From positions 1-33,523 of the forward strand of contig DASPUC010000040.1 of NCBI GenBank assembly GCA_035623075.1: DNA of 33,523 nucleotides, in the 5' to 3' direction. Below the pieces are notes generated by a model. It saw only the letters and a list, made by a program, of their open reading frames with translations, was not told where the DNA came from and searched no databases. The translations under genes were made by a program, and so were the position numbers. Numbering within the stretch: position 1 is the stretch's first letter; each line of letters starts with the position of its first letter. This document shows positions 3,784 through 4,330 of the stretch, in pieces. This DNA is from Nitrospiraceae bacterium (GTDB lineage Bacteria > Nitrospirota > Nitrospiria > Nitrospirales > Nitrospiraceae).

Positions 3784-3933
3784 TCAACAATCACAGCACG
3801 ATTCCTCAATTCCATCGCCCACGGCGGTTTCGCAGGCTTGCTCACGGCAGACGGCGTACCCTGAATTCCGGCAAGCCAGATCCGTAGTGCACGCGACGAC
3901 CACGACAATTGAAAGTAAAGCCAGAATGGACAT
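3784..3933 (-). CDS. Small Cys-rich protein (49 aa) in the mgtA leader
   Basis: ATG at 3933 opens a 49-codon frame ending in TGA at 3784-3786, 36 bases before the preferred mgtA start. The first 15 residues are hydrophobic (MSILALLSIVVVVAC) and end in a lipobox-like VVAC, although the positive charge expected of a signal peptide is absent. Seven cysteines follow the pattern C15, C21, C29, C34, C46, C47, C49, with a CCDC end. A strong GGAAGGAGAGG lies directly upstream but is the 3' arm of a perfect hairpin, so initiation should be controlled. It may be a small membrane-anchored or metal-binding protein, or only a leader whose translation is coupled to mgtA. No homologue comes to mind. Confidence 0.55.
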   Translation of the reverse strand: MSILALLSIVVVVACTTDLACRNSGYAVCREQACETAVGDGIEESCCDC

Positions 3934-3963
3934 CCTCTCCTTCCCATTGGCCGGAAGGAGAGG
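3934..3963 (-). promoter_or_regulatory. SD-sequestering hairpin with a competing upstream strand
   Basis: On the transcript, CCUCUCCUUCC (3963-3953) and GGAAGGAGAGG (3944-3934) are perfectly complementary over 11 bp with an 8-base loop. The 3' arm is the ribosome-binding site and abuts the AUG at 3933. A second copy of the SD-like strand, AGGAGAGG at 4015-4008 inside the upstream leader ORF, can pair over 8 bp with the same CCUCUCCU. The two pairings are mutually exclusive, which is the architecture of a translational attenuator or riboswitch platform. The structure is seen directly; its function is inferred. Confidence 0.6.
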
Positions 3964-3974
3964 TCAGAGGCAGG

Positions 3975-4076
3975 CTACGAACGTGGGATTCGAGAGACGA
4001 ACTCCAACCTCTCCTGGCCCAGCAAGCCGAGCAAAGAGACAGCTACCCTATCTCTACTACTACCGCCATCATCCAT
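3975..4076 (-). CDS. Putative 33-aa leader peptide of the mgt operon
   Basis: ATG at 4076 with GGAG nine bases upstream opens a 33-codon frame ending in TAG at 3975-3977. The peptide starts MDDGGSSRDR and contains a hydrophobic VSLLGLLG stretch. The ORF lies just downstream of a good promoter, contains the competing AGGAGAGG strand (codons 20-23), and stops 12 bases before the hairpin that hides the next ribosome-binding site. Small leader ORFs that sense ribosome progress are established for Salmonella mgtA (MgtL) and mgtC. This peptide is not proline-rich like those. Only the position and structure argue for it, so confidence is moderate. Confidence 0.4.
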   Translation of the reverse strand: MDDGGSSRDRVAVSLLGLLGQERLEFVSRIPRS

Positions 4077-4107
4077 GGTGAACTGCTCCAGTGATTAACT
4101 CTGTGTG

Positions 4108-4136
4108 CCTTTACGCCAGTAAAAAACTCTTGTCAA
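4108..4136 (-). promoter_or_regulatory. Sigma-70-type promoter of the mgt operon
   Basis: On the minus strand a perfect TTGACA (4136-4131) is followed after 17 bases by TAAAGG (4113-4108), a fair -10. Transcription would begin near 4100, just ahead of the 33-codon leader ORF, giving a leader of about 350 bases before mgtA. No M-box-like riboswitch was recognised by eye. Confidence 0.55.
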
Positions 4137-4190
4137 GGCATTTCCCTCGCACCCATGACCTGCGGTTTAGGAAACCGTGGTCGTCACCCT

Positions 4191-4330
4191 ACTCCAGCCT
4201 ATTCAGGCTCACTGAGGCCCACTCCAGCCAAAGTTTGCGCGAAATCCAAACTTTGGCTGGAGTAGGCTGGAATGAGCTGGAGTGAGGTGGAGTTGAGCAC
4301 AAAATGAGCACAATTGGGTGGAGTGAGCCT
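4191..4330. repeat. Nested inverted-repeat element built on ACTCCAGCC/GGCTGGAGT
   Basis: The core is a perfect 17-bp inverted repeat, ACTCCAGCCAAAGTTTG at 4221-4237 and its complement at 4247-4263, separated by 9 bases. Imperfect complementarity continues outward: ACTCCAGCCTATTC (4191 on) against GGAATGAGCTGGAGT (4269 on), and AGGCTCACT (4205-4213) against AGTGAGCCT (4322-4330). There is no T-run on either side, so it is not a typical intrinsic terminator. It fills the space between the ankyrin gene and the mgt promoter and may be a REP- or MITE-like intergenic element. The remaining bases between 4137 and 4443 show no gene. Confidence 0.6.

Follow-up and report, generated by a model that had tools for sequence, protein, structure and literature searches.

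The question raised by this locus is whether the 5' region of an mgtA-mgtC gene pair in a Nitrospiraceae bacterium carries a translational switch, built from two SD-like strands that compete for a single anti-SD strand. In the window, i.e. the whole stretch of 33,523 nt that was analysed, the minus strand presents in order an ankyrin-repeat gene (5721-4444), which forms the upstream flank of the leader region, a 33-codon ORF (MDDGGSSRDRVAVSLLGLLGQERLEFVSRIPRS), a 49-codon ORF (3933-3784; MSILALLSIVVVVACTTDLACRNSGYAVCREQACETAVGDGIEESCCDC), mgtA and mgtC. The 33-codon ORF of the original prediction was confirmed at 4076-3975, and the putative product of the 49-codon ORF would have a hydrophobic N-terminus. 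The mgtA gene (3753-1048) codes for a Mg2+-translocating P-type ATPase, as indicated by matches to TIGR01524 and PRK15122, and the mgtC family gene (1019-318, with matches to the Pfam families MgtC and MgtC_SapB_C) begins 28 nt 3' of it.

Analysis of pairing in the leader reveals three strands and two helices. Strand 1 (AGGAGAGGTTGGAG, 4015-4002, minus strand) is an SD-like copy located within codons 21-25 of the 33-codon ORF, strand 2 (CTCTGACCTCTCCTTCC, 3969-3953) is the anti-SD, and strand 3 (GGAAGGAGAGG, 3944-3934) serves both as the SD of the 49-codon ORF and as the 3' arm of a perfect 11-bp hairpin, in which 3963-3953 pairs with 3944-3934 across an 8-nt loop. The last base of the hairpin immediately precedes ATG 3933, so that its 3' arm indeed reads as the SD of the next ORF, as had been proposed; its energy, modelled for the hairpin alone, is -22.3 kcal/mol. 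A second copy of this arm, previously described as AGGAGAGG at 4015-4008, does pair with the anti-SD strand, and the helix comprises 14 contiguous pairs (strand 1 4015-4002 with strand 2 3969-3956, two of the pairs being G-U) as opposed to the 8 noted earlier. Both helices need strand 2, which supports the proposal of two mutually exclusive structures. The stop of the 33-codon ORF lies 11 bases before the hairpin, not 12 as first counted. The AAGGAG core of strand 3 is just 3 nt away from ATG 3933; the best SD-to-start spacing is usually larger than this, and the short spacing should make the 3933 site weaker as an RBS. Two other identities of the hairpin were considered and rejected: it is not a dispersed repeat or mobile hairpin, since the 30-nt palindrome had no second occurrence in the genome even when up to 3 mismatches were permitted, and it is not an intrinsic terminator, since it is followed by no U-run on either strand.

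It is the 49-codon ORF whose SD is masked, and the description of the region as an mgtA leader, with mgtA as the regulated ORF, has to be amended in this respect. The mgtA gene possesses an AAGGG SD of its own, located 6 nt ahead of the likely start (ATG 3747) and 0 nt ahead of an alternative start (ATG 3753); the start of mgtA lies about 30-36 nt past the stop of the 49-codon ORF and about 180 nt from the masked SD. In a leader-ORF attenuator the masked RBS is that of the regulated main gene, and here the RBS precedes the 49-codon ORF instead. Because mgtA has its own SD, any effect on it would need coupling, Rho or mRNA stability. The promoter assigned to the leader is likewise only partly recognizable: the putative -35 hexamer TTGACA (4136-4131, minus strand) is a perfect match to the consensus, yet the best candidate for the -10 element, TAAAGG (4113-4108, minus strand), spaced by 17 nt from the -35 hexamer, is a weak one with 3 of 6 consensus bases, and the promoter scan called no promoter here. 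Another possible -10 element, TAAAAT (3771-3766, minus strand), is located about 20 nt ahead of the mgtA start and, judging by its sequence, could drive synthesis of a short, leader-independent mgtA transcript.

In the modelled growing transcript, the 1:2 helix (strand 1 with strand 2) was virtually complete until most of strand 3 emerged, and was then replaced by the 2:3 helix, i.e. the hairpin, such that a transcript ending at 3925 was entirely in the 2:3 form. For transcripts ending between 3900 and 3784, the equilibrium populations were 55-92% for 2:3 and 8-45% for 1:2, and in a model of the 96-nt core, direct conversion of 1:2 into 2:3 had to overcome about 17 kcal/mol. A ribosome footprint placed over codons 16-30 of the 33-codon ORF raised the predicted fraction of 2:3 to at least 0.97, in agreement with the claim that a ribosome over codons 20-23 would block one of the structures; according to these models leader translation should close the RBS, not open it. 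A footprint at codon 32 gave the opposite outcome and one at codon 33 did not, so that this crude model makes no consistent prediction for the end of the ORF. The calculations support bistability of the leader. They do not support a clean on/off control of the RBS: when 1:2 was enforced in a 226-nt model, the SD core was still mainly paired elsewhere (unpaired probability 0.02-0.35 per base), and in every free-RNA model it was open at most 7% of the time.

In order to reconcile these features we propose that the 5' region of mgtA-mgtC contains a three-strand expression platform for translational control, acting in the first place on the 49-codon ORF, and we estimate the probability of this reading at roughly 0.4. 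In the closed state, strand 2 would sequester the SD of the 49-codon ORF (strand 3), and in the less closed state it would pair with strand 1 inside the 33-codon ORF. This reading presumes that transcription starts from the putative promoter upstream of the 33-codon ORF and that the small ORFs are translated. As strand 1 is transcribed ahead of strand 3, the emerging RNA should initially fold into 1:2, with 2:3 taking its place later provided that the downstream start has not been used before. Occupation of strand 1 by a ribosome would disrupt 1:2 and shift the RNA towards the closed hairpin, so that efficient translation of the upstream ORF is predicted to repress, and poor initiation there to permit, the use of the downstream start. 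The mgtA gene may be affected indirectly, by the three routes named above, while any Mg2+ input or link is unsupported.

Such an arrangement is not without precedent, although SD occlusion by a duplicated strand was originally thought to be undescribed: the M. tuberculosis pe20 M-box provides a published example (PMC12810186), and a close analogue is the Salmonella mgtQ-mgtB leader (PMC8092293). In the pe20 leader, SD1 (the anti-anti-SD), the anti-SD and SD2 compete, as tested with reporters, in a platform that operates under an M-box and with Rho-dependent termination, and SD2 is the SD of uORF2, identical to the small, conserved and expressed rv1805A (PMC12810186). The Nitrospiraceae locus is similar in that one anti-SD strand has two exclusive SD-like partners, of which one is a copy and the other is the SD of a small ORF preceding Mg2+-linked genes, in that an upstream ORF overlaps the strands, and in that the controlled ORF is small and is not the main gene of the operon. 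However, in pe20 the M-box aptamer sets the choice, whereas no M-box was detected by Rfam in the Nitrospiraceae window, and uORF2 is conserved and expressed, whereas nothing was found to be conserved at the Nitrospiraceae locus. Therefore, the locus resembles the pe20 platform on paper, but we do not class it as a member, because the window contains no known Rfam aptamer that could act as the sensor and the SD core stays mostly paired in the modelled alternative state. An aptamer-less variant of the pe20-like layout, seen in a single genome, is plausible but unproven.

The other Mg2+-related and antibiotic-responsive leaders show partial similarities. In Salmonella, the 8 codons of mgtQ extend over alternative stem-loops by which the RBS of mgtB is masked (PMC8092293). 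The two loci share a short ORF, with acidic residues near its start, over exclusive RBS-masking stem-loops at a transporter of the MgtA/MgtB type; they differ in that mgtQ-mgtB uses four strands, translation of its uORF opens the RBS, the masked RBS is that of the transporter, and the ORF is conserved in enterobacteria and was shown to be translated. The ermC/ermB and toiL-topAI systems also combine a leader ORF with an SD-masking structure, translational control and a possible contribution of Rho (PMC5118997, PMC12121999), but in these systems stalled ribosomes open the structure, whereas the Nitrospiraceae geometry predicts closing, and the Nitrospiraceae locus has no link to a drug or stress. 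Leader ORFs and alternative stem-loops at Mg2+ genes are found also in the Salmonella mgtA and mgtC leaders (the latter Rfam mgtC_leader, RF02887), whose action is mainly transcriptional, by attenuation (PMC3641672); these differ from the Nitrospiraceae locus, which has no Rfam match. What would be distinctive of the locus with respect to the known systems compared is the lack of a recognised aptamer combined with the repressive leader translation predicted by the models.

The comparison with mgtQ and the erm genes brings up the possibility of a ribosome-stalling attenuator, in which slow ribosomes within the 33-codon ORF would open the downstream RBS. The upstream ORF does overlap a competing strand, like mgtQ, and its acidic residues 2 and 3 recall Asp2 and Glu5 of mgtQ, but the polarity is wrong: in a three-strand system, a ribosome that covers strand 1 leads to closing of the RBS, whereas mgtQ achieves opening by way of a fourth strand; moreover, a stall motif is not evident in the 33-codon ORF. 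We consider this explanation very improbable. Coincidence, i.e. chance pairings in non-functional intergenic DNA located beside a dispersed repeat, appears somewhat less remote, yet still unlikely. When the 407-nt region was simulated 3000 times with a Markov model, no copy had a perfect hairpin of at least 11 bp with a loop of 3-12 nt, and a 14-pair helix with strand 2 arose in just 0.4% of Markov upstream sequences; the joint occurrence of both with the adjacent ATG is hard to ascribe to chance. Nonetheless, the whole window had been searched, and a hairpin of such class occurs in about 7% of Markov windows at the full 33.5-kb length (the sole other one in the present window sits inside a dispersed repeat); conservation, which would also argue against coincidence, was found neither in the phylum genomes nor in 88 mgtA upstream regions. 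The pairings are probably not due to chance, the evidence being moderate given that the whole window was scanned.

A static reading stands level with the three-strand platform. On this view the 11-bp palindrome acts as a stable hairpin of the mRNA (with a role in 5' protection or pausing) or as a DNA operator, the small ORFs are not genes, purine-rich SD-like sequence gives rise to the second helix as a side effect, and expression of mgtA relies on its own SD, with a nearer promoter (TAAAAT at 3771-3766) perhaps contributing. Perfect hairpins of at least 11 bp are present in 7 of the 88 other mgtA upstream regions (as counted from the table) without a common leader, and this class of hairpin is thus normal for such regions. 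The duplex energy of the second helix is unexceptional compared with shuffles (P 0.14; P 0.015 compared with real windows), and the SD core is occluded in both states. On the other hand, a static hairpin would not readily account for a 3' arm that resembles a strong SD and has an ATG directly at its end, nor for a contiguous 14-pair alternative as rare as the Markov sequences suggest. The small ORFs themselves side with the static reading. In a codon model trained on 16 genes of the window, with leave-one-out controls, the 33-codon ORF scored -3.2 bits, below all but 4% of the true segments and exceeded by 36% of the non-coding open ones, and the 49-codon ORF scored -2.0 bits (4% and 32%, respectively); the third-position GC content is 0.58 and 0.57, versus 0.73 for mgtA, and the codon usage of both resembles that of non-coding frames. 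Neither ORF matched any Pfam or NCBIfam family, and peptide searches of family genomes, plasmids and viral contigs returned weak chance matches, with nothing credible for either. The assumption that the small ORFs are translated thus gained nothing from codon usage or homology; young or fast-changing ORFs would be compatible with the data, in which we saw no positive sign of coding.

Returning to the three-strand platform, it is favoured by the perfect hairpin at the ATG together with its long rival helix, by the near balance of the two modelled states, by the early completeness of 1:2 and the shift to 2:3 under footprints at codons 16-30, by the single-copy nature of the hairpin and its lack of a U-run, and by the similar, reporter-tested strand logic of pe20. 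It is disfavoured by the small ORFs, with neither coding-like codon usage nor a homologue, by the 3-nt SD spacing and the occlusion of the SD core in both modelled states, and by a leader that is conserved nowhere searched, has a weak -10 element and does not, as a whole, fold more stably than shuffles (z = -1.0). A more specific version, in which an aptamer-less switch reads translation of the 33-codon leader ORF and controls a small protein of 49 residues, membrane-bound or secreted, that is produced along with MgtA and MgtC, with a polarity opposite to that of mgtQ, seems to us improbable. If the platform is real, one more bacterial lineage gates Mg2+-transporter genes via competing SD strands, and a three-strand platform is able to work without a recognised aptamer; if it is not, the locus cautions that purine-rich SD-like strands readily yield duplicate pairing partners.

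Comparative searches placed the leader in this genome only. A search with the leader DNA against 41 relatives and 396 genomes of the phylum retrieved just an unrelated upstream repeat or short chance matches, a search of plasmids retrieved none, and the leader is absent from all 88 mgtA upstream regions checked. The small ORFs and the strands were not found in the 396 phylum genomes, in 172 genomes of the family or in the 88 upstream regions; the searched set includes no other genome of the genus and no close relative, so that absence of the leader from it is not a fair test of conservation among close relatives. The nearest mgtA proteins (about 61% identity, among GTDB genomes) are spread across many phyla; identity is 55-58% within the family and does not exceed 58% in samples of the order and the phylum. 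Among Rfam families, the M-box (RF00380), the mgtC leader (RF02887) and other Mg2+ leaders had no match in the window; as positive controls, the M-box was found at three other mgtA loci (L055, L056 and L083) and RF02887 at one (L123).

Next to the leader lies a copy of a strongly palindromic repeat, about 150-160 bp long (4163-4316, plus strand), which is dispersed in this genome as at least 15 full or partial copies; several of these are separated from a gene end by no more than tens of bases. One end of the repeat, GCGGTTTAGGAAACCGT, has a 22-23 nt match to tRNA-Arg(CCT) of relatives, in the region of the anticodon arm, and the other end is GTTGAGCACAAAATGAGCACAAT. The tRNA-like stretch upstream of the leader belongs to this repeat; no tRNA was found in the window. 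Two contigs of the same assembly (C17 and C19 of G000; L150 and L151) start exactly at the GCGG end of the repeat, which suggests that the repeat breaks the assembly or marks a junction. A similar copy with the same tRNA-Arg-like end is present in a relative from another genus of the family (G016, L009, approximately 1475-1511).
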